DNA from: a virus
Direction: 5' to 3' (one strand)
Virus record (IMG/VR): IMGVR_UViG_3300047378_000511
Location: 1-29,781 of that record
DNA length: 29,781 nucleotides
Numbering within the stretch: the stretch's first letter is position 1; each line of letters begins with the position of its first letter. The notes beneath the pieces are model-generated. The model was not told where the DNA came from. It saw nothing but the letters and a program-made list of their open reading frames with translations, and did no database searches. This document shows positions 5,651-29,781 of the stretch, piece by piece. Both the position numbers and the translations under genes were made by a program.

Positions 5651-6922
5651 ATGCCACGCCAAAACCCCTACATGATGGACCCTTTGCTGGCTCAAGGCTT
5701 TTCGAATTTGACGAAGGCTCTGATCGGTGATCCCGAAACAGATTATCAGGTGGCTAGGACAAACCGGGTCAACGAGCTTTTGCCTTTGGAAAAGCAACAA
5801 ATGCAAGCGCAAATAGGTGGTACTAATGCTAGTGCAGCTGCGGCTAGGGCTTTGGAGACACTCCGTCAAGCGCAAACGTTGACTGAAAACCAGTTGCGCG
5901 ACCCCCGTGTGCAGACGGAACTTGCCAACGCGAAGGCGACATTAGCATTAGCAGGCGAAAGGGACGCAAGTGCGGCATTCATCGGATCGCAGCGAGCTAC
6001 AGAAGAGGCTCTTCGCACTCCAAGAGTCGACAAAATTAACGCAGAAGGCGCTGCCGCTACTGCTTTGGAGCAATCTAGGTTAGCGGATGCAATGTTTAGG
6101 GGAGCGCAGACCGCTACAGAAACTGCTCTTCGTACTCCAAAAGTTGGTAAAATTAATGCAGAAGGCGCTGCCGCGACTGCTTTAGAGCAATCTAGGTTAG
6201 CAGATGCAGCGCTTGCGGGAGCGAAGACTACTACAGAAACTGCTCTTCGTACTCCAACAATTGGTAAAACTAATGCAGAAGGCGCTGCCGCGACTGCTTT
6301 GGCTGCCGAAAGAAACTCCGCAGCAGACCTTAACAGAGCCAAGGCCGAATCCGAAGGCCGAATAATTCTTAACGCCGGTCAGACAATCGTGACTACAGGT
6401 GCTGATGGGCAGCAACAAGAATACACTGCTCCAGAGACTGTCGAGGTAGTTTTAGAGCCTGGGGAGGAAGCCGTTGTTATAAATGCAGACGGCTCACAGA
6501 CACGGCTAAAAGGACCGGCAGGGACCGGAGACCCGAAAGATGCTGCTGCTCTTCTTGAAGGCATCGACGGCCAGTTAAATACATTCTTTGAATCAGAGGC
6601 ATGGAGTAAAGTAAGCCCAACTTTACTACGGCGCATTCGATCTTCGATGACAGCGGCAAGTAAAGGACAAAACCTTACAGATGCTGCGGAAAAAATACAG
6701 GCACTAATGTCTGATACCTATAAGGGCCAAAACATTGTCGAGCTTCAAGGTGGTTGGGGTGACGGTGCAGCATTTTACGTTCCAGGATACATTCTTAATT
6801 TTATTTCAGATGCGATTGCGGACAACAGCACTCCTAAAGCAAGTGCAATTGCCAAGGAATACGGGCTTTCACTTCAAGAGTCTGAATCTGTATTGAAGTT
6901 TTTAGGGGTTGAAAATGGCTGA
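5651..6922 (+). CDS. Internal virion protein with triplicated 39-residue module (423 aa)
   Basis: Sits where T7 gp15 would be, between gp14-like and giant gp16-like genes. An AGGA box lies 6-7 bases before the ATG. Residues about 109-225 are three tandem 39-residue units ending ...TALEQSRLADA, nearly identical at the level of motif EALRTP / INAEGAAATAL, so this segment is a repetitive Ala-rich helix or coiled coil. A more degenerate copy may precede them. The C-terminal part (from about residue 230) is different: a beta-like segment with VVTTGADGQQQEYTAPE, then a helical domain. Its TGA overlaps the ATG of the giant gene by eight bases, indicating coupled translation. Exact function is not visible. 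Confidence 0.5.
   Translation: MPRQNPYMMDPLLAQGFSNLTKALIGDPETDYQVARTNRVNELLPLEKQQMQAQIGGTNASAAAARALETLRQAQTLTENQLRDPRVQTELANAKATLALAGERDASAAFIGSQRATEEALRTPRVDKINAEGAAATALEQSRLADAMFRGAQTATETALRTPKVGKINAEGAAATALEQSRLADAALAGAKTTTETALRTPTIGKTNAEGAAATALAAERNSAADLNRAKAESEGRIILNAGQTIVTTGADGQQQEYTAPETVEVVLEPGEEAVVINADGSQTRLKGPAGTGDPKDAAALLEGIDGQLNTFFESEAWSKVSPTLLRRIRSSMTAASKGQNLTDAAEKIQALMSDTYKGQNIVELQGGWGDGAAFYVPGYILNFISDAIADNSTPKASAIAKEYGLSLQESESVLKFLGVENG
5975..6325 (+). repeat. Three tandem 117-bp in-frame repeats
   Basis: Units run 5975-6091, 6092-6208 and 6209-6325; each encodes 39 residues. The second and third are especially alike at DNA level (GCAGAAGGCGCTGCCGC occurs at exact 117-base intervals from 6041, 6158 and 6275 with small changes). 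The last unit diverges at its end (AAERNSAA). The pattern indicates recent in-frame duplication, and copy number could vary between related phages. Confidence 0.9.
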
Positions 6923-14985: not shown

Positions 14986-16041
14986 TTACTCATGGACGTC
15001 ATCCAGATAGTCGGGAGCAAGATGCTCGTAATTTTTCCTGACTGTCTCAACCGTATCCCCCATGAATTTAGCTACTTTCTCGATTGGAACGCCACGAGTA
15101 ATAGCGCGCGTAGCCCATGTATGTCGAAACACATGCGGATGCAAATCATCTATGTTGAGGCTCTGACCCAAAGACCGCACCGCCTCGTAAAGTGACGACG
15201 GCTTATCCAGCACATAATCGTTTATCGCCTCGCTCTTGGCGCGCTCCAGGACTGGTTTCAACATGGGGCTGATGGACAGGGCTGGCCGTCGTTTGATCGA
15301 TTGCAAGCGCCCCTGCGGATTAAACTGTATCTGGTTGCGCTCGATGCTGACTTGATCCCAGCGCAGCTGCTCGATGGCCGTCTTGCGCTGTGCTGTTTCC
15401 ATTGCCAGCATAACGAACCGCCCAACCCTCGACATACGATTGGAAGGGCGTCGTCCAGGTCCGTTGATGACGTGGTTTGAGCAAGTATCCCGCAGTAACT
15501 GCACCTCGTCTTCAGTCAGCACTCGATCTCTAGGTGGCGACGGAGGCGGTAGATCGATATATGGGATGATCTCGCTAGAAATCCGCTGCTCTTTAGGCTC
15601 CACGCGCTCATTCATAAAGCGCAAGCAAGCGCGCAGCCGTTGCAGCTCACCGCGTATAGTGCCAGATGCTGCCTTGTTGGAGCCGATAATACCATTAGCG
15701 CGCAGCTCAATAAACTTCTTAGCGTGTTCGCGTTCAATGGTGCTGACAGGCATGTTGCCAAAATACGCATTCAAGTTGTTTACGATAGCTGGGTATCGGA
15801 CCTCACTAAGCATACGCCCCTCGATCCACTGAGACATCCAAAGGTCTAAGCAAAACTCAACCGTTGGGTCTTTAACGACCTCAGTGTGCAGCTTGTAGTC
15901 CTTCAACCAACCCGAAAACCGCAGCGTTGCGACTTCCTGATCTGTCGTCCTAAGCGATACTCTTTTGCTGCGTCCGTCTTCTCGGAACGCGACATACCAC
16001 TTTTCGTTTTTGTGTTGCTTGAGTTCTGGTGGCTTTGACAT
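14986..16041 (-). CDS. int: Tyrosine recombinase, phage integrase (351 aa)
   Basis: Would catalyse site-specific integration into and excision from the host chromosome. The C-terminal catalytic domain shows the family residues: the first Arg in ETAQRKTAIEQLRW, the HVFRHTWATRA box (H-x-x-R, with a later Trp standing for the second His), and the nucleophile Tyr in VRKNYEHLAPDYL near the end. The N-terminus (KNEKWYVAFREDGRSKRVSLRT) looks like an arm-binding domain, followed by a helical core-binding domain. Length is normal for the family. The 5' end overlaps the excisionase-like gene by 139 bases in another frame. The neighbouring direct repeats at 14794-14985 are the likely binding region. Confidence 0.93.
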   Translation of the reverse strand: MSKPPELKQHKNEKWYVAFREDGRSKRVSLRTTDQEVATLRFSGWLKDYKLHTEVVKDPTVEFCLDLWMSQWIEGRMLSEVRYPAIVNNLNAYFGNMPVSTIEREHAKKFIELRANGIIGSNKAASGTIRGELQRLRACLRFMNERVEPKEQRISSEIIPYIDLPPPSPPRDRVLTEDEVQLLRDTCSNHVINGPGRRPSNRMSRVGRFVMLAMETAQRKTAIEQLRWDQVSIERNQIQFNPQGRLQSIKRRPALSISPMLKPVLERAKSEAINDYVLDKPSSLYEAVRSLGQSLNIDDLHPHVFRHTWATRAITRGVPIEKVAKFMGDTVETVRKNYEHLAPDYLDDVHE

Positions 16042-19689: not shown

Positions 19690-21852
19690 ATGGCAGATAA
19701 ATTAAGATGGGCGAAGTTCTGGGCCGACAAAGGCTTCAGTGTTGTACCAGTCCACTATGTAAAAGAAGGCGGATCATGCAGCTGTTCGGCTGGCGCGGGT
19801 TGCGACAGTCCAGGTAAACACCCAGCACCCTCACGCTGGAAGCGGTATCAAGAAAAACGTGCCGACGACGACCAGCTAGAAATGTGGTTCGAGGGTCGAT
19901 TCAAAGATTACAATATCGGTGTGGTCACTGGCTCCATCAGCGGCAACGTGTATGCCGTGGATGTTGACGTCAGCGAAGGAAAAGTAGGGCAAGAAACGCT
20001 CGACGATCTGTCGATGGCAAATGACGACATCCCAGAAACCTTTGAGCAGCGCACCGGATCAGGTGGAAAGCATATCTTTCTGCGCGCACCCGAAGGAACG
20101 GCAATCATTACAGGAAAAAACGTCCTGGGCGATGGTATAGACACGCGCGGCGAAGGCGGGTTCGTCGTCGTCGCACCATCTAATCACAAATCAGGTGGTA
20201 AATACCGCATCGAAGACTGGGCGCTGAACAACGAAATCGCAGACAGTCCCGAATGGGTGACGCAAATCAGCAAGACAGACGCAGCGCGATACGACGACAC
20301 AACCATTCAAGACAAGAAAACGGATATGTTTGGCGACCTCACGGATGGCCGCGAAGGTTACATGGTCGAGCTGATCTTGGGAACCATCCGAACATGGTGG
20401 GTAACAAAAGGTGTGCTGCCGACAGTCGAAGAGCTGGTCGACGACGCTTGGCCCACGTTTGAGCTAAAAGCGAAAGCCCGTGGCTCGTCACTAGCAGACG
20501 ATGGCCGTGGCAAAGACCTGTTCCAACGAAAGGCGTGGTATCAGCTCAAACGCGCAAACAACAACGAACTCCGCATCCTGCAAAACGTCGAGCCAGGATC
20601 GGAAGCAAATACTGGGGTGCAGTCGTTCACTGCTGCCTCCGGTATGTCCGAAAGCCCTTCGTCAGTGACCCCAAGTACGGACGAGGGCTTTCGGATTTCA
20701 GATTGGGGCATGAACCGATACGTCGGGGAACCGCCAGAAATGGAATGGCTGATCGATGGCGTCCTCCCAAGGCGCGTACCCGGCCTTATTTCTGCGATTG
20801 GCGGTTTGGGTAAGTCGTTCATGCTCTTAGACCTTGCCATGAAAGTCGCGGGTGGCGATCAAGGAATGCACCGCGAAGACGCCCTTGGAGGGGACGTCGT
20901 TCATAATGGCAAGGTCGTTTTTTTCGGGGCAGAAGACAGCGCCAATAGTATGCACAGACGCATATCGAGTATCGGAGGCCCGAACCTCAGAGATCGAGCA
21001 GCCGGAAACCTGTTTGTCGTACCAATGCCAGACGCAGGGGGGCCAACGCCGCTCATTGTCAACGCAATGGGCCAATACAGCGTGACACCCGCATTCGTAG
21101 AAATACGCAGGCAGTTGCTCGATCTTGGAGACATCGCGCTAATCATCATCGATCCGCTCCAAGCCTTTGCAGCTGCCGACATCAACACCGATCCAGCAGC
21201 AGCGCAATACTGGTGGTCGCTCATGTCCCACCTATGCGTCGAAACAGGCGCAAACATCCTAATCGCGCACCACATGCGAAAGGATGGCGCGTTCAACATA
21301 ACAAAGGCCAGCCAAGCCAGAGAAGCAATCAGAGGCACAACGGCGCTCGTTGATGGCGCAAGGTGGGCATACAGCCTCTGGGCAATGAATGAAGCTGACG
21401 AACTGGTCCTGGCGCAAAAGTTAGACATTGAAGCGGGTGTCGGCCAATGCGCCCAGGGTGCAGTCGTCAAGACAAACGACCAATGCGACATGCACATCCG
21501 CAGCTTCATTAGAGGCGAGACTGGACTGCTGGTTGATCGAACAATGGAAATCAGTGGAATCCTAGACGCGTCAACCAAGCTCGACAGAGGCCAGACGCAA
21601 GCCGTTTTCGACGAAATTTATCGTCGCTGGAACACGTCAGAGCCGTTTTCAATGGCCGTCAACACGCAGCGCAGCCTCCAGAGCTTCCTGCACTCCGACT
21701 ATGGAATGCCAAAACGCGCAGCCAAGTCATACATCAAGGCGTGGAGCGACCAAGGCTTCATAGAAAGCGCAGTCCACGACAGCAAAACAAAGACAAAGGG
21801 CATTAAAGTAATAAAGACGCCCGACCAGCAACAATGGAGGGCATACTCATGA
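19690..21852 (+). CDS. Bifunctional primase-polymerase / RepA-like helicase (720 aa)
   Basis: Main replication enzyme visible here. N-terminal PrimPol (AEP-type) domain at about residues 1-200: Cys30, Cys32 and Cys38 in CSCSAGAGC followed by SPGKHP, catalytic Asp91 and Asp93 in AVDVDVS, GSGGKH with His128, and GIDTRGEGGFVVVAPSN. The C-terminal domain is a RecA-fold, RepA/AAA_25-type helicase at about 345-570: Walker A GGLGKS at 371-376, Walker B LIIIDP with Asp488, and ILIAHHMRK. A small wHTH-like tail (about 640-700) follows. ATG 19690 is preferred to TTG 19678. It ends ATGA with the next gene. No replicative DNA polymerase is seen in the window, so fork synthesis may use host Pol III. Confidence 0.9.
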   Translation: MADKLRWAKFWADKGFSVVPVHYVKEGGSCSCSAGAGCDSPGKHPAPSRWKRYQEKRADDDQLEMWFEGRFKDYNIGVVTGSISGNVYAVDVDVSEGKVGQETLDDLSMANDDIPETFEQRTGSGGKHIFLRAPEGTAIITGKNVLGDGIDTRGEGGFVVVAPSNHKSGGKYRIEDWALNNEIADSPEWVTQISKTDAARYDDTTIQDKKTDMFGDLTDGREGYMVELILGTIRTWWVTKGVLPTVEELVDDAWPTFELKAKARGSSLADDGRGKDLFQRKAWYQLKRANNNELRILQNVEPGSEANTGVQSFTAASGMSESPSSVTPSTDEGFRISDWGMNRYVGEPPEMEWLIDGVLPRRVPGLISAIGGLGKSFMLLDLAMKVAGGDQGMHREDALGGDVVHNGKVVFFGAEDSANSMHRRISSIGGPNLRDRAAGNLFVVPMPDAGGPTPLIVNAMGQYSVTPAFVEIRRQLLDLGDIALIIIDPLQAFAAADINTDPAAAQYWWSLMSHLCVETGANILIAHHMRKDGAFNITKASQAREAIRGTTALVDGARWAYSLWAMNEADELVLAQKLDIEAGVGQCAQGAVVKTNDQCDMHIRSFIRGETGLLVDRTMEISGILDASTKLDRGQTQAVFDEIYRRWNTSEPFSMAVNTQRSLQSFLHSDYGMPKRAAKSYIKAWSDQGFIESAVHDSKTKTKGIKVIKTPDQQQWRAYS

Positions 21853-21998: not shown

Positions 21999-22158
21999 GT
22001 GGATCGATTGCCCGACATGCGACGGCGAAGGCGAATACCTCGTTGAAGTGCCAATGCGCCAGAGCTTCACCCGTGACGTCGGTGAATACGAAACCGAATG
22101 GGAAACCTGTGAAGACTGCAACGGAGAAAAGCAGATCGAAGAAGAGGCAGACGAATGA
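21991..22158 (+). CDS. Mini zinc-finger protein, DnaJ-type Cys repeats (55 aa)
   Basis: GTG start inside the end of the previous gene. Two C-x-x-C-x-G motifs, CPTCDGEGEY at residues 7-16 and CEDCNGEKQI at 40-49, match one zinc site of the DnaJ cysteine-rich domain, where paired C-x-x-C-x-G repeats bind zinc. No J domain is present. Phages often carry such stand-alone fingers near replication genes, where they may bind DNA or protein partners. TGA overlaps the ATG of the next Cys-containing gene. Confidence 0.7.
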   Translation: MTKWIDCPTCDGEGEYLVEVPMRQSFTRDVGEYETEWETCEDCNGEKQIEEEADE

Positions 22159-22520
22159 ACGAGATTTGTAGAACGTGCGGCATAAAGAACGAAAACCCAG
22201 AATACAAAAACTGCGAAACTTGCCGGAAATACTGGAGAGAGCAGCAGCGGAAAGTCGATGGAAACGCCGCGAAGGTGGACCGGATGCAGTCGAAAATCGC
22301 AACGCAAAGAAACGAAATTGCAATGCTAACGCGCAAGCTCGAAGCCGCAACAAAAGAGAAATTGCAGCTCCTAAACGACATCAAATGGATGCGGGGAGAA
22401 ACACCCGAAAATCGTCACTTCCGCCAAAAATCTCGCACTTCCGCTGGCGGAAGTAACGCAGGGGAACCCTCGAAATTGGCGGAAGTGAAGGGGGGGAACC
22501 CCGAAAAATGGCGGAAGTAA
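22155..22520 (+). CDS. Zinc-ribbon plus coiled-coil protein (121 aa)
   Basis: N-terminal C5-x-x-C8 and C20-x-x-C23 form a compact zinc ribbon (CRTCGIKNENPEYKNCETCRKY). Residues about 25-80 are a long charged coiled coil (QSKIATQRNEIAMLTRKLEAATKEKLQLLND). The C-terminal 35 residues are low-complexity and are encoded by the left part of the GGCGGAAGT repeat array, so this tail is probably shaped by DNA-level needs rather than by protein function. ATG overlaps the upstream TGA. Function unknown; DNA binding or oligomerisation is plausible. Confidence 0.65.
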   Translation: MNEICRTCGIKNENPEYKNCETCRKYWREQQRKVDGNAAKVDRMQSKIATQRNEIAMLTRKLEAATKEKLQLLNDIKWMRGETPENRHFRQKSRTSAGGSNAGEPSKLAEVKGGNPEKWRK

Positions 22521-22626
22521 GAAATGAGACAGCTTCAAAATATGGGAAAAGTGGCGGAAGTGGGCGGAAGTGGGGCGGAAGTAAACCCCCGTACCCCCTA
22601 TACATTACTTCCGCTACGGCGGAATT
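22416..22626. repeat. Iteron-like array of GGCGGAAGT motifs
   Basis: Nine exact copies of GGCGGAAGT or its 8-base core GCGGAAGT, plus one partial copy. Plus-strand copies start at 22446, 22478, 22510, 22553, 22563 and 22574; minus-strand copies lie at 22416-22425, 22436-22444 and 22606-22614; the partial GGCGGAA is at 22618. Copies at 22437-22444 and 22447-22454 form a perfect inverted repeat with a 2-base gap. A second motif, GGGGAACCC, precedes two of the copies 32 bases apart (22461, 22493). Spacings of 32, 32, 43, 10 and 11 bases are near whole helical turns. This looks like a protein-binding array: replication origin iterons or operator sites. Confidence 0.85.
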
Positions 22627-22637
22627 GTAATGAAAGG

Positions 22638-22645
22638 AAGGAGGT
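22638..22645 (+). promoter_or_regulatory. Full-length Shine-Dalgarno AAGGAGGT
   Basis: An eight-base match to the 16S rRNA 3' end, six to seven bases before GTG 22651. It is the strongest ribosome-binding site I saw in the window and decides the start of the following gene as the GTG rather than ATG 22630, which lies upstream of it. Confidence 0.8.
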
Positions 22646-22650
22646 ACGAC

Positions 22651-23262
22651 GTGACGACGAAAACAAGATATAGCGAACCAAAGAAGAGCCGAAAAAAAGT
22701 TGTAGCGGATGACAGCTGGAAAGCACCAAAGATGTTTTCGGATAAACGATCTGACATTTGTTACGCAGCTGTTCGATCCGTTGACAAGGTTGCCCGTGAC
22801 TTGGAAATGAAATGGGGGATCGGAAAGCTGGAAGAACTAGCACCGCCTAAACTTGCCGTCGCATTCGAGCAAGCCAGACAAAACTTCTCTGATGCTGCGC
22901 TAGGCGATGATCACAATTACCTCGTCCAAAAAGCCGACAACCTGATCCAAGGATGGAAAGCCGTCGAAGCATACGCGATCAAAAATGGAAACAACCCCGG
23001 TGATGCCGACGTCTGGTACGCAATCGCGCCGCCGGATGCCGGTGGTCACAAATTCGCAATCGTAAAACATGAAGCCGACACCGCAGCCGTAGATCGAACA
23101 GAATACCCAAAAGTCTACAGCCTCGACGAAATAGCGCGGATCATTAAGGCATTCGAAACTGACATGATTGCCAAAACCAAAGAAATATTCCCCGACGCCA
23201 AAATTACAAAGATCACACCAACCACAAAAAAGGTTATACTCGATGACGAAATTCCCTTCTGA
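22651..23262 (+). CDS. Unknown helical protein with SSB-like acidic C-terminal tail DDEIPF (203 aa)
   Basis: Starts at GTG after a full Shine-Dalgarno. The N-terminus is basic (KTRYSEPKKSRKKVV). The body is mostly helical (CYAAVRSVDKVARDLEMKWG, LAVAFEQARQNFSD, YLVQKADNLIQGWKAVEAYA) with a short beta part (DVWYAIAPP, HKFAIVKH) and no clear OB fold. The last six residues are DDEIPF, almost the DDDIPF tip by which bacterial SSB recruits PriA, RecQ, RecO, the Pol III chi subunit and others. It lies directly after the GGCGGAAGT array in the replication region. I infer that it either is an unusual ssDNA-binding protein or mimics the SSB tail to recruit host replication factors. The family is not recognised. 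Confidence 0.6.
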   Translation: MTTKTRYSEPKKSRKKVVADDSWKAPKMFSDKRSDICYAAVRSVDKVARDLEMKWGIGKLEELAPPKLAVAFEQARQNFSDAALGDDHNYLVQKADNLIQGWKAVEAYAIKNGNNPGDADVWYAIAPPDAGGHKFAIVKHEADTAAVDRTEYPKVYSLDEIARIIKAFETDMIAKTKEIFPDAKITKITPTTKKVILDDEIPF

Positions 23263-25648: not shown

Positions 25649-25721
25649 AGTGTTTCCTTTGTTTGCGCTTGTTGATGCCTACGGTCGGCACCTGTCGACA
25701 AACTGCCAAAATGGCCGTTAG

Positions 25722-25750
25722 TTGTCAACACAGTTGTGCAATAGTATTAT
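25722..25750 (+). promoter_or_regulatory. Sigma70-like promoter for the terminase small subunit
   Basis: TTGTCA (25722-25727) and TATTAT (25745-25750) with a 17-base spacer, about 30 bases before the GTG start. The 131-base divergent gap 25649-25779 also contains the palindrome TGTCGACA (25693-25700). No equally good minus-strand promoter was found, though TTGACA reads leftward at 25728-25723. Confidence 0.6.
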
Positions 25751-25779
25751 TGAGGCGGGAAACAGACAGGAGCGCAGCC

Positions 25780-26232
25780 GTGGGAATGATTAGGCAGAGA
25801 CAGGCGACGGACCAACAAAAGTCCTTCGTGCAGTATTTGGTCAGAGAGAATAAGAAGCCCACTGAAGCCGCACGAATGGCAGGCTATCTGCACCCAAAGC
25901 AGTCAGCCTATGATTTAACCCGCAATCCTTCCGTGATGCTGCTTATTCGGCAGGCAAGACAAACCCTCTATCAAACCGACCTTGCCAACTTGGCAGCTGA
26001 TACGCTGCGCGTGGTGATGGTGGACCCTGATGCACCGGCGTCGGCCAAGGTTTCAGCCGCCCGCACGGCGCTCGAGCTGGCCGGAGACCTCAACAAGAAC
26101 GGTGACGGTGCAGCTGATGGCCGCAGCCTCGCCGAAATGACACCCGATCAGTTGGCAAGTATGATCGATCGTTGGGAAGCAGAGCGCGCCGATATGGCAA
26201 AAGACGTGACAGCGGCGCAAAACGACGAATAA
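25780..26232 (+). CDS. Terminase small subunit-like DNA-binding protein (150 aa)
   Basis: Likely recognises phage DNA for packaging. The N-terminal HTH is of Terminase_2 type: TDQQKSFVQYLVRENKKPTEAA, RMAGYLHPKQSAYDLTRNPSVMLLIRQARQ. A helical oligomerisation region follows (LANLAADTLRVVMVD, ASAKVSAARTALELAGDL), then a charged tail. AGGAG stands seven bases before GTG 25780, which fits better than ATG 25786. The large subunit is not adjacent; an unusual 233-base noncoding stretch follows. The call is by domain pattern; a regulatory HTH protein is the alternative. Confidence 0.65.
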   Translation: MGMIRQRQATDQQKSFVQYLVRENKKPTEAARMAGYLHPKQSAYDLTRNPSVMLLIRQARQTLYQTDLANLAADTLRVVMVDPDAPASAKVSAARTALELAGDLNKNGDGAADGRSLAEMTPDQLASMIDRWEAERADMAKDVTAAQNDE

Positions 26233-26794: not shown

Positions 26795-29781
26795 TGGCAC
26801 AACCACGAGATTACACACGGCAGTATAACTTCAACGATTATCAGGCTACGAGCCCCAGCGATCCTTTGCGCGGTTCTGAGGTTGACGGTGAGTTAAACGC
26901 GATCAAGCTGACGTTGGATGATTTGAATGCGAACATTGCGAAGATACAGCGCGACGATGGTAAGTTGGGCAACGTTTCTGTTCACAAGGATGCGTTTGAC
27001 CAGGGTGCGTTAGCGATTATCAACAGTACGTTTACGCCACGCGGAAATTGGTCTGCGGCCGTTTCTTATGTTGTGAATGATGCTGTAAACTTCAACGGTG
27101 CGACGTACGTTGCGACTGTTGCGCATACATCGAGCGCGGCTTTTGCGACTGACACGGCTGCATCACGTTGGTTGTTGATTGCGAATGCTGCTCTTGCTGG
27201 GACGAGTAGTTCTGTTGATAAATTTGAGGGCGACGGTTTAACGACTGCGTTTACGTTGTCGAACACTTATGCGAGTGAGACATCGTTTTTTGTTTTTGTT
27301 AATGGGGAGTTATTGAACCCTGTTGATGATTATACGTTATCCGGCACGACGTTAACGTTATATACGGCTCCTGGTTTGCCGACTGTTGCTGGCAATGAGA
27401 ATTTGATTGTTTGGGGTTCTAATGTTGTTGCGCAGGCGTCTCAGGATGCTGCGGAGGCTGCCGAATCGAATGCGAGTGGTTTTGCTGACGAGTCTGAGAG
27501 CTGGGCGTCGAAGACGAATGGCATTGTTGAGAGTACGGATTATTCGTCTAAGGCATGGGCGACGGGTGGTACTGGCGTTGATGCTGGTTCTGGTTCTGCG
27601 AAGGACTGGGCTACGAAGACTAGCGGTACGGTTGGCAACACGACTGAGTATTCATCGAAGTATTGGGCTACGCAGGGTGATGTACCCATTGTTGCGACGA
27701 ACATTGCTGACGTTAATACTGTTGGCACGAATATCAGCAGTGTGAACACGGTTGCTGGTATTGACGCTAATGTTACGACTGTTGCGGTCATTTCGTCTGA
27801 TGTTACCACGGTTAGCGGTATATCTGGTAATGTTAGCACTGTAGCTGGTATTTCGTCTGACGTGACCACGGCTGCGGGTGACAGCGTTGATATTCAGACG
27901 GTTGCTTCGAAGTCTGTAGAGATTGGTCGTCTCGGTACGGCTGATGCTGTTTCTGACATGAACACGTTGGGCACTGCTGCGATTGTTTCTGACCTTGATA
28001 CTTTAGCTGACATATCGACTGACATTTCTACGGTTAGCGGAATTTCTGCTAATGTTACTACGGCTGCTGGTATTTCTGCTAATGTTACGACTGTTGCTGG
28101 TATTGCGTCTGACGTTACTACGGTTTCGGGTATAAACACTGCGGTTTCGACTGTCTCTGGCATAGCGTCTGATGTTAGTACGGTTTCTTCGAACAACGCT
28201 AATGTTACGACTGTTGCTGGGAACAATGCCAATATTTCCACGGTTGCGGGTGTAAGTACGGACGTCACTACGGTCAGCGGGATTTCTGGCAATGTTACGA
28301 CTGTTGCCGGTGTTTCTGGAGATGTTACGACTGTATCGGGGATAGCGTCTGATGTTAGTACGGTTTCGACGAATAATGCTAATGTTACGACGACTGCTGG
28401 CTCGATCACTAGCGTCAACACGGTTGCTTCGAGCATAGCGGATGTAAACACGGCGGCTTCTAACATTGGTGATGTGAGTACCGTTGCTGGCGAGATTGGT
28501 GTAAGTGGTGTTGTTACGATAGTTGCGGCTGCGATTACTGACGTTTCCACGGTATCTGGTGATATAGCTTCGGTTATTACGGCTGCTAATGACTTGAATG
28601 AAGCGGTGTCTGAGATTGACACTGTATCCAATAGCATTGCGAATGTTGATACGGTTGGCATTAATATTAGCGATGTGAACACGGTTGCTGGTAACAATGC
28701 GAATGTTTCCACGGTTGCGGGAAATACGACTAATATCAATACGGTTGCTGGAATTGACGCTAATGTTACGACTGTTGCGGGGATTTCCAGCGATGTAGCT
28801 ACGGTTTCTGGTATTTCGAGCGATGTCACAACTGTAGCGGCTGATGTGACTGACATTGGTACTGTGGCGGCGAGCATTGCCAGTGTGAATACGGTTTCTG
28901 GTTCAATCAGCGACGTCACCACTGTTGCTGCAAATATCAATAACGTAAATGACTTTTTTGATGTTTATCGCGTCGGAACTTCAGACCCGTCTACTGGCAA
29001 TGATAACGGCGATTTATTTTACAACAGCTCTTCTGGTATTTTAAAGGTTTACAATTCCACGACGGCTGCGTGGGAGCAGGGCGTAACTGCTGGTTCTGGT
29101 TTTTTAGCCCTTACTGGTGGGCAACTTACTGGCAACCTTACCTTCTCTGGATCGGAAACTGTTGATGGCCGTGACTTGTCCGTTGATGGGGCGAAGCTGG
29201 ATGGCATCGAGGATGGTGCTAAAGCCGATCAAACAGCGGCTGAAATACGGGCGCTTGTTGAAAGTGCTACTGATAGCAATGTATTTACAGACGCAGACCA
29301 CACGAAACTTTCTGGCATCGAAGCTGGCGCTGATGTCACTGATACACCAAACGTGGTTGCAGCACTAACTGCGGGTTCAAACATTACCATTGCCGCTAAC
29401 GGTACTATCTCTGGCGCTGCTCAGTACACCCACCCATCTCACCCTGGCGATGACATCAATATAGATACTGGTGCGTTGAGTGGTGCGACAGTTATCTCTG
29501 ACCTAGACTTTAACGTAACCACCGACACTTTAGGTCACGTTACGGATGCTAATGCTACTTTTTCTACCCGAAACATAACCCTAGCAAACTTGGGCTACAC
29601 TGGCGCAACTAATGCCAACCATATAACCAATAACAACCAGCTAACCAACGGCGCTGGCTACACAACGTACTCGGCAAACCAGAGTTTAGATACGAGCAGC
29701 GCCCCTACATTTAATAATATCTATAACAACGATTGGTTCCGCAATAATGCAGCTAACGAAGGTCTATATAACCAAGCTACA
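26794..29781 (+). CDS. Tail fibre protein with 41 decapeptide repeats, 3' end outside window (996 aa visible)
   Basis: Host-recognition fibre. The frame is open from ATG 26794 to the window edge. Order: an N-terminal virion-attachment region (RDYTRQYNFNDYQATSPSDP, then ELNAIKLTLDDLNANI), a carbohydrate-binding-module 5/12-like segment at about residues 79-130 (RGNWSAAVSYVVNDAVNFNGATYVA), a beta segment, SWA-S/T-KT repeats about 225-295 as in many phage fibres, 41 decapeptides at residues 300-720, then the phage-fibre motif VDGAKLDGIEDGA at about residue 800 and THPSHPG. The C-terminal receptor-binding tip and any chaperone lie outside the window. The repeats likely form an elongated trimeric shaft. 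Confidence 0.88.
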   Translation, partial: MAQPRDYTRQYNFNDYQATSPSDPLRGSEVDGELNAIKLTLDDLNANIAKIQRDDGKLGNVSVHKDAFDQGALAIINSTFTPRGNWSAAVSYVVNDAVNFNGATYVATVAHTSSAAFATDTAASRWLLIANAALAGTSSSVDKFEGDGLTTAFTLSNTYASETSFFVFVNGELLNPVDDYTLSGTTLTLYTAPGLPTVAGNENLIVWGSNVVAQASQDAAEAAESNASGFADESESWASKTNGIVESTDYSSKAWATGGTGVDAGSGSAKDWATKTSGTVGNTTEYSSKYWATQGDVPIVATNIADVNTVGTNISSVNTVAGIDANVTTVAVISSDVTTVSGISGNVSTVAGISSDVTTAAGDSVDIQTVASKSVEIGRLGTADAVSDMNTLGTAAIVSDLDTLADISTDISTVSGISANVTTAAGISANVTTVAGIASDVTTVSGINTAVSTVSGIASDVSTVSSNNANVTTVAGNNANISTVAGVSTDVTTVSGISGNVTTVAGVSGDVTTVSGIASDVSTVSTNNANVTTTAGSITSVNTVASSIADVNTAASNIGDVSTVAGEIGVSGVVTIVAAAITDVSTVSGDIASVITAANDLNEAVSEIDTVSNSIANVDTVGINISDVNTVAGNNANVSTVAGNTTNINTVAGIDANVTTVAGISSDVATVSGISSDVTTVAADVTDIGTVAASIASVNTVSGSISDVTTVAANINNVNDFFDVYRVGTSDPSTGNDNGDLFYNSSSGILKVYNSTTAAWEQGVTAGSGFLALTGGQLTGNLTFSGSETVDGRDLSVDGAKLDGIEDGAKADQTAAEIRALVESATDSNVFTDADHTKLSGIEAGADVTDTPNVVAALTAGSNITIAANGTISGAAQYTHPSHPGDDINIDTGALSGATVISDLDFNVTTDTLGHVTDANATFSTRNITLANLGYTGATNANHITNNNQLTNGAGYTTYSANQSLDTSSAPTFNNIYNNDWFRNNAANEGLYNQAT
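27691..28953 (+). repeat. 41 tandem 10-residue (about 30-bp) repeats in tail fibre
   Basis: Consensus V-[AS]-G-I-[SA]-x-[ND]-V-[TS]-T, with apolar residues at positions 1, 4 or 5, and 8. Thirty-six of 40 units up to the last are exactly ten residues; four are longer (12, 12, 13 and 14 residues). DNA of neighbouring units is often near-identical (such as gttacgactgttgct), which favours unequal recombination and length change. Confidence 0.9.

Follow-up and report, generated by a model that had tools for sequence, protein, structure and literature searches.

We observed that the PrimPol-helicase gene of this virus is followed by an array of short repeats (iterons; 22416-22626), which begins about 0.56 kb after the stop of the gene (21852) and runs into a hairpin. 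The array and hairpin are best explained as the iteron replication origin of a temperate phage, which would be bound by a winged helix predicted at the C-terminus of the PrimPol-helicase, with the hairpin serving for loading or priming. We give this reading a probability of about 0.78. It is built on the array, its conservation, the compensatory hairpin, the linkage to this helicase family in phages and in bacterial genomes of different groups, and an association between winged helix and repeat, and it is from these sequence comparisons that we infer origin activity. The features are listed in Table 1; the window is the whole stretch of viral DNA that was analysed (29,781 bases).

Table 1. Features of the window around the array, with positions in the window.
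Feature	Position	Strand	Remarks
Integrase	14986-16041		
PrimPol-helicase gene	19690-21852	+	720 aa, counted from ATG 19690; start in the ORF list, TTG 19678
Predicted C-terminal winged helix, proposed iteron reader	21661-21825	+	From AlphaFold2, Foldseek and the iteron association
Zinc-ribbon-like small ORF	22155-22520	+	3' end enters the array; full length in close relatives only
Left block	22417-22454	both orientations	Inverted boxes 22417-22425 and 22437-22445 and one direct box, making inverted pairs
Three direct boxes, 32-bp steps	22446-22518	+	Small GGGGAACCC inverted repeats in between
Three tandem direct boxes, 10-11 bp steps	22553-22582	+	Adjoin the C-rich element
C-rich element CCCCCGTACCCCC	22586-22598	+	Conserved
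Outer stem, CGTACCCCCT with AGGAGGTACG	22590-22648	+	Formed by the C-rich element; the inner stem is the stronger
Inner hairpin	22603-22632	+	Inverted box ACTTCCGC in the 5' arm; loop TACG; the 3' side has a 2-nt bulge
203-aa protein gene	22651-23262	+	GTG start; DDEIPF tail; directly 3' of the array in marine phages
Possible small terminase	25663-26232		Terminase_2 E 0.003, below cut-off

The repeat array

The core of the repeat is the 8-mer GCGGAAGT, which occurs in both orientations, with nine copies at 22417-22614 (six on the plus and three on the minus strand). A leading G is present in seven of the nine, which makes them the full 9-mer GGCGGAAGT. These seven (six on the plus strand, one on the minus strand) are the only exact 9-mers in the whole window, and they form a single cluster in the 29,781-base record (which may be a fragment). 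The one-mismatch form AGCGGAAGT was seen on the minus strand at 22437 and 22607, and a degenerate tenth copy, GGCGGAATT, on the plus strand at 22618. A preliminary description of this DNA had counted nine copies and a partial one, in both orientations, within 211 bases; its coordinates were right, and the nine are 8-mers, of which seven extend to the 9-mer.

When up to one mismatch to the 9-mer was allowed, 17 matches were found in the whole window as against 6.7 expected (none of 100 shuffles reached 17), and 10 of the 17 fell in the array. A scan that presupposed no motif also gave the array as the strongest 8-mer cluster of the window (9 copies; the maximum in 100 dinucleotide shuffles was 4). 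The next-strongest clusters lie at 27768-28519, with TCGTAACA five times and TAACATTA four times, and there are long repetitive ORFs there.

The plus-strand copies follow each other at steps of 32, 32, 43, 10 and 11 bases, exactly as had been described, and at a further 44 to the degenerate copy. The earlier suggestion that these steps are close to whole DNA turns held in part: on a 10.5-bp turn the seven plus-strand copies, including the degenerate one, are phased (R = 0.77; p ~0.01 against random positions), but the effect is modest and the 44 step fits worst. The second motif that had been noted at a 32-base offset is GGGGAACCC (22461-22469 and 22493-22501). Small inverted repeats in the spacers (boxes 30-34 b apart) showed a partial trend, with 24 of 91 distinct spacers at p<=0.05. 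The spacer at 22519-22552 is A-rich by eye, and composition, computed coarsely, established no AT-rich stretch for melting. On the minus strand, the left inverted boxes are followed by a T run (22436-22455), giving a terminator-like site; in 22000-23000, two such sites were found as against 2.0 expected. The cumulative GC skew has a small local peak at 22.2-22.8 kb, and the coding strand switches shortly after; the skew speaks neither for nor against an origin here.

The array overlaps the end of the zinc-ribbon-like ORF and covers its 3' end, as the preliminary description had pointed out together with a distance of 0.6 kb from the PrimPol-helicase, which agrees with our measurement. As the full ORF is limited to close relatives, the array is not there for the protein of this ORF. 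The proposal that selection acts on the DNA itself is supported by the finding that the upstream gene varies between phages while the array stays; we would word it as selection that seems to act on DNA or RNA rather than on the overlapped protein.

Genes and proteins next to the array

Pfam detected only the Prim-Pol (residues 11-189; PF09250, E 1e-34) and AAA_25 helicase (residues 334-534; PF13481, E 3e-35) domains in the PrimPol-helicase. When phage records were searched with this protein, 80 of 50,697 matched some part of it. Among the best 20 of these 80 were the primase/helicase of Rhizobium phage RHph_Y3_1 (41% identity to the helicase half) and gp5 of Wolbachia WO (36.5% identity to the helicase, over query residues 310-673), and the latter is annotated as 'similar to RepA of plasmid RSF1010'. 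The last 113 residues were modelled by AlphaFold2 as H-H-H-E-E (mean pLDDT 75, with blocks of 74-91 over residues 21-100). Foldseek on this C-terminal model gave the winged helices of MarR and KAT6A as top matches (best E 0.026, none at E<=0.001).

The GTG of the 203-aa gene (22651) is preceded by a good ribosome-binding site; in the ORF list the gene starts at an earlier ATG and encodes 210 aa. The protein had no Pfam or PHROG family above cut-off. Its AlphaFold model is a helical bundle with a small sheet, for which no PDB structure was matched at E<=0.001 (best 0.22), and the best E against PDB sequences was 0.24. We take its DDEIPF tail to resemble the tails of SSB proteins. Relatives were confirmed in none of the genome contigs and seen in none of the phage collection. 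In long contigs the gene order is RuvC-like, PD-(D/E)XK exonuclease-like, two small genes and the PrimPol-helicase, followed by variable small genes, the array, the 203-aa gene and a DUF6378 gene.

Conservation of the array in marine phages

The array and its spacing are kept in related phages. Loci related to the 203-aa protein numbered 33 in IMG/VR, and in 32 of them an array (judged by motif count or by eye) lies upstream of the gene; the remaining one, L025, begins inside the gene. In the groups that resemble the window, spacings such as 32, 31-32, 43, 10 and 11 are kept and the DNA between the boxes varies. A profile search with the 203-aa protein gave 57 loci, many of them identical to the 33, and an array was seen by eye in 20 of the 21 upstream regions viewed. 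The exception, L093 (a 31% relative of the 203-aa protein), lacks a clear array, and its locus gave no PrimPol match. One pattern match (L043) had no related genes and was set aside as chance.

We also searched with the PrimPol-helicase and kept 80 loci from the 122 related stretches that this gave. Among 35 helicase loci (34 of the 80 and the Rhizobium phage, L094), 28 showed a single 8-mer four or more times within 330 b, at most 2.5 kb 3' of the match; these locus counts are not independent events, since many loci are near-duplicates and some are the same contig twice (e.g. L033 and L072). In three of the seven loci without four exact copies the contig is limiting (L099 and L117 have less than 380 b of 3' DNA, and L103 ends at the left edge of the array), and in the other four (L110, L128, which is the same as L076, L141 and L144) the array is short or degenerate by eye. 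The start of L015 and the end of L103 are contig breaks that fall in the array or at its edge, as though the assembly or the genome ended there. PrimPol-helicase phages of this kind are recurrent in the metagenome collection searched.

The repeat itself differs between phages. Arrays are made of GCGGAAGT, ACGGAAGT, GCGAAAGT or TCCGGAGGT, with most copies of an array changing together, and the forms recorded are, depending on the phage, GGCGGAAGT, TGCGGAAGT, TACGGAAGT, TGCGAAAGT, TCCGGAGGT, TCCGGTGGT or TGCGGGKGGT. In some arrays (e.g. L152), GCGGAAGT and GCGAAAGT are mixed. Right behind the last box most arrays carry CCCCRTACCCC or a close form, and then an inverted box. Arrays of the L148 type do not have such a form directly after the array, and in L075-L077 the inverted box matches neither the usual pattern nor the repeats closely. 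This change of the repeat as a set, as well as the compensatory hairpin with its C-rich element, was absent from the preliminary description.

A compensatory hairpin at the end of the array

The hairpin stems show compensatory changes. The DNA fold of 22585-22650 had a z of -5.1. For the hairpin class of the window, 14 rows with hairpins of equal length (13 of 46 rows and L056) were compared, and 89.1% of cells pair, as against 30-50% in slid pairings. Cells changed on both sides, which count sequences and not events, numbered 16 as against 5.1 in shuffles (0 of 500 reached 16). Two other measures were not beyond the shuffles, the count of pairs changed on both sides (5 vs 3.0; 29/500) and that of further pair types (7 vs 8.2; 477/500). 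By helix, 93.4% of cells pair in the inner stem and 83.6% in the outer stem, three pairs of which fail in at least half of the 14 rows.

A second hairpin class was seen in 12 of 40 distinct rows. Here the anti-box is an 8-nt loop between stems of 5-6 bp, for example GTTGTT/AACAAC, GGTGTT/AACACC and GGCATT/AATGCC. We evaluated 8 of the 12 rows, those with stems of at least 5 pairs; 95.8% of their cells pair (far fewer in slid pairings), a percentage that is biased upwards as the rows were chosen as stem-forming. Cells changed on both sides were 10 as against 2.7 (none of 500 shuffles reached 10), while pairs changed on both sides (3 vs 1.9; 134/500) and pair types (5 vs 4.2; 199/500) again did not exceed the shuffles.

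For the window and phages closely related to it, the outer stem has its 3' arm (22639-22648) over the ribosome-binding site of the 203-aa gene. This stem could also damp translation of the gene. In L017-type relatives, the outer stem stops well short of the start codon.

The same layout beyond marine phages

In the cultured Rhizobium phage RHph_Y3_1, we observed eight copies of CGTTCCCA within 189 b, in both orientations, directly 3' of the primase-helicase gene (9 copies in 10.8 kb as against 0.46 expected). The array sits in a 306-b gap after the helicase gene that carries no annotation, and a hairpin there is flanked by inverted copies. Since the N-terminus of the RHph_Y3_1 protein is not PrimPol by Pfam (a weak Toprim match was below cut-off), the layout follows the helicase half.

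Fourteen further helicase loci came from a scan of bacterial genomes, several of which are MAGs, and these loci are presumably prophages. The genomes were those of Shinella, Neorhizobium, Endobacterium, Pseudaminobacter, Ochrobactrum, Brucella daejeonensis, Caulobacteraceae, Brevundimonas, Mesenet, two Thalassospira, Geminicoccus, Thauera and one alphaproteobacterium. In 11 of the 14 (12 of 15 with RHph_Y3_1), 4-9 copies of an 8-mer were found 3' of the helicase match, the repeats being CGTTCCCA, CGGGAACG, GCGTTCCC, CGGAACGA or AGTTGGCA. Upstream control stretches had 0-4 copies, and the 4 copies found 3' of the match in L159 do no more than equal the highest control. The array starts about 0.76 kb from the helicase match in L164 and within 190 b in the other ten. 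Tandem iterons, a C-rich hairpin and an inverted iteron make up, by eye, the end of several of these arrays; in L160, L162 and L163 the repeats are weak or degenerate.

A search for the 203-aa protein at E<=1e-3 gave no relative in the 14 genome loci, RHph_Y3_1 or Wolbachia WO (L095); the best value was 0.004, in L164. As the like layout occurs at helicase loci where a 203-aa relative was not found, the array goes with the helicase. The idea that such an array could be the phage origin is supported by this layout 3' of related helicase genes elsewhere and by the conserved array and spacing.

In L164, from the Wolbachia relative Mesenet, seven AGTTGGCA lie 3' of a RepA-type helicase gene (6426-6635). 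Wolbachia WO itself has a related helicase, and no repeat cluster was found within the 4 kb examined. We also evaluated the arrays for what we take to be the IHF consensus, and the best site had 0-1 mismatch in 9 of 14 arrays (perfect in L114, L159, L161 and L168; one mismatch in L094, L146, L156, L158 and L165), often as TAAGTCATTGA-like stretches. Only the four perfect sites were rare in shuffles and the best site in the window had three mismatches, and IHF sites were therefore dropped as a part of the finding.

Association of the winged helix with the repeat

Among 45 distinct loci, pairs that share an iteron were, at equal helicase identity, 3.6 points more alike in the winged helix than other pairs (4 of 2000 label shuffles), in a test whose statistics ignore phylogeny and which left out any locus that had under 4 copies, a stop in the helicase match or no long 203-aa match. 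The corresponding difference was +2.1 points for the 203-aa protein (23 of 2000) and -0.3 points for the neighbouring linker (1300 of 2000). The association favours the winged helix as the likely reader of the repeat.

Three loci behave otherwise. The helicase proteins of L075, L076 and L077 are 93-96% identical, yet their repeats differ; in L076 and L077 the C-terminal part is 97% identical. These counter-examples stood outside the association test, arrays of the L076 type being without 4 copies of one 8-mer. Either reading is not strict at the variable positions, or homogenisation of arrays outpaces change in the protein. With these three loci, a simple co-evolution of the repeat with the whole protein was not clean.

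The proposed origin and its alternatives

The arrangement fits an origin, since a helicase gene is followed by iterons 3' of the gene and then by a structured single-strand element. The PrimPol-helicase made from the upstream gene would bind the duplex iterons through its C-terminal winged helix, and sites about whole turns apart would align several protomers on one face of the DNA. The helicase may then open the DNA at or beside the C-rich element, and the exposed single strand would fold into the hairpin, which could mark the place for helicase loading and/or for the first PrimPol primer.

A more far-reaching proposal, which we hold only tentatively and consider rather doubtful, is that the RepA-type-helicase phages have a distinct class of origin in which the duplex iterons and the hairpin with its inverted iteron are read as one unit. 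The initiator would bind the duplex iterons, melt the DNA and recognise the iteron again in the hairpin to position the helicase and the primer. If this were true, the repeat could drift as a set provided that duplex and hairpin copies change together, and the origin would be private to each phage, which would avoid cross-firing, titration and origin-directed nucleases.

The preliminary description had also suggested an operator, and here the array would control transcription or translation of the 203-aa gene, with the repeats, as DNA or mRNA, bound by the 203-aa or another phage protein and the ribosome-binding site hidden by the hairpin, much as T4 gp32 reportedly controls its own mRNA. The place of the array directly before this gene in marine phages, the outer stem over the ribosome-binding site and the weaker association of the 203-aa protein with the repeat all speak for it. 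However, arrays lie 3' of helicase genes in loci where a 203-aa relative was not detected, and on this ground it was dropped as the main reading. The outer stem of L017-type relatives, which ends well before the start codon, the boxes in both orientations and the result that no promoter-like site was found by simple consensus in 22000-23000 also stand against it. We consider it unlikely as the main role of the array, although an extra control of the gene may be added to the origin.

The compensatory changes, the 8-nt anti-box loop and the folding of the array region as RNA (z -4.35) would also suit a structured RNA, in which hairpins and inverted boxes act in the transcript, for example by boxes pairing with a complementary box in the hairpin loop; the array and hairpin do sit inside an operon. 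This seems quite improbable, as single-stranded DNA of either strand folds as strongly (z -4.35 and -4.94), no Rfam family reached gathering score (one match below it had E 0.62) and the near-whole-turn spacing points to duplex DNA. Repeats with inverted copies occur at packaging, attachment and partition sites too, and the array could accordingly be a cos/pac, attachment or partition site with iteron-like protein sites. The chance of this is very slight, for the position of the array tracks the helicase gene and not the integrase or the possible small terminase (Table 1), and in RHph_Y3_1 the terminase genes are 2.5 kb from the array. An origin read by the PrimPol-helicase is the explanation that we prefer.

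Comparison with known origins

To our knowledge, the origins of PrimPol-helicase phages have been little mapped. In open-access PMC, judged on titles and the beginnings of abstracts, the array or its repeats were not found described as an origin, which does not prove their absence from print. Uncultured marine phages and a cultured Rhizobium phage would share a recognisable origin signature, and origins in related phages would become predictable. One conserved initiator family here meets many iteron sequences in a natural series. The element would also allow a direct test of how a winged helix on a RepA-type helicase recognises iterons.

Clustered short repeats near an initiator gene, as expected of an iteron origin, are present here, the PrimPol-helicase being the presumed initiator. 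In SaPI Rep and SCCmec Cch2, as far as PMC7581432 describes them, a C-terminal domain reads iterons that lie just downstream of the helicase gene or operon. The same arrangement is seen here, with the array downstream of the helicase gene and, as the proposed C-terminal DNA-binding domain, the predicted winged helix. In contrast to those elements, the AAA_25 helicase is fused to a PrimPol in our virus (RHph_Y3_1 being not PrimPol by Pfam), and the array ends in a compensatory hairpin with an inverted iteron.

According to the accounts in PMC4234260 and PMC4538821, RSF1010 divides the work between RepC on the iterons, RepA, which opens the duplex, and RepB', whose priming is 3' to the ssi stem-loops. 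The oriV of this IncQ plasmid resembles our element in the iterons, in an AEP-type primase, in a helicase that may be RepA-like in our case (by the annotation of the WO relative) and in stem-loops, which mark priming in RSF1010 and may do so here. It differs in that there is one fused protein here, and one compensatory hairpin per array as against ssiA and ssiB; priming at our hairpin is a proposal.

Both RSF1010 and pRN1 use stem-loops with AEP primases, as outlined in PMC4234260. The ORF904 protein of pRN1 is a PrimPol-helicase with a C-terminal winged helix, and its stem-loop origin, in which structure is kept rather than sequence, lies directly 3' of the gene (described in PMC4234260). A PrimPol-helicase, a C-terminal winged helix (predicted in our case), an element 3' of the gene and a structure-conserved stem-loop are thus common to both. 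However, pRN1 has an SF3 helicase and, in the account given by PMC4234260, no iterons, whereas the helicase here is AAA_25 and was not found to be SF3.

Phage P4 and our virus both have a multidomain primase-helicase and repeats at the origin (a proposed one in our virus), with binding by a winged helix being proposed here. The P4 origin has a second, distant repeat cluster, for which this record, possibly incomplete, showed no counterpart among the exact 9-mers. As PMC4234260 presents it, the P4 alpha protein is a multidomain primase-helicase whose winged helix binds the origin repeats, and its primase, unlike ours, is a Toprim. The case of the PLE origin of Vibrio cholerae satellites and the nuclease Odn, described in PMC8263062, shows that iteron origins attacked by a nuclease directed at them can diversify, and the likeness to our arrays would lie in this ability. 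By analogy with these systems, the element appears to combine features of SaPI/SCCmec, RSF1010 and pRN1 on a fused PrimPol and RepA-type helicase.
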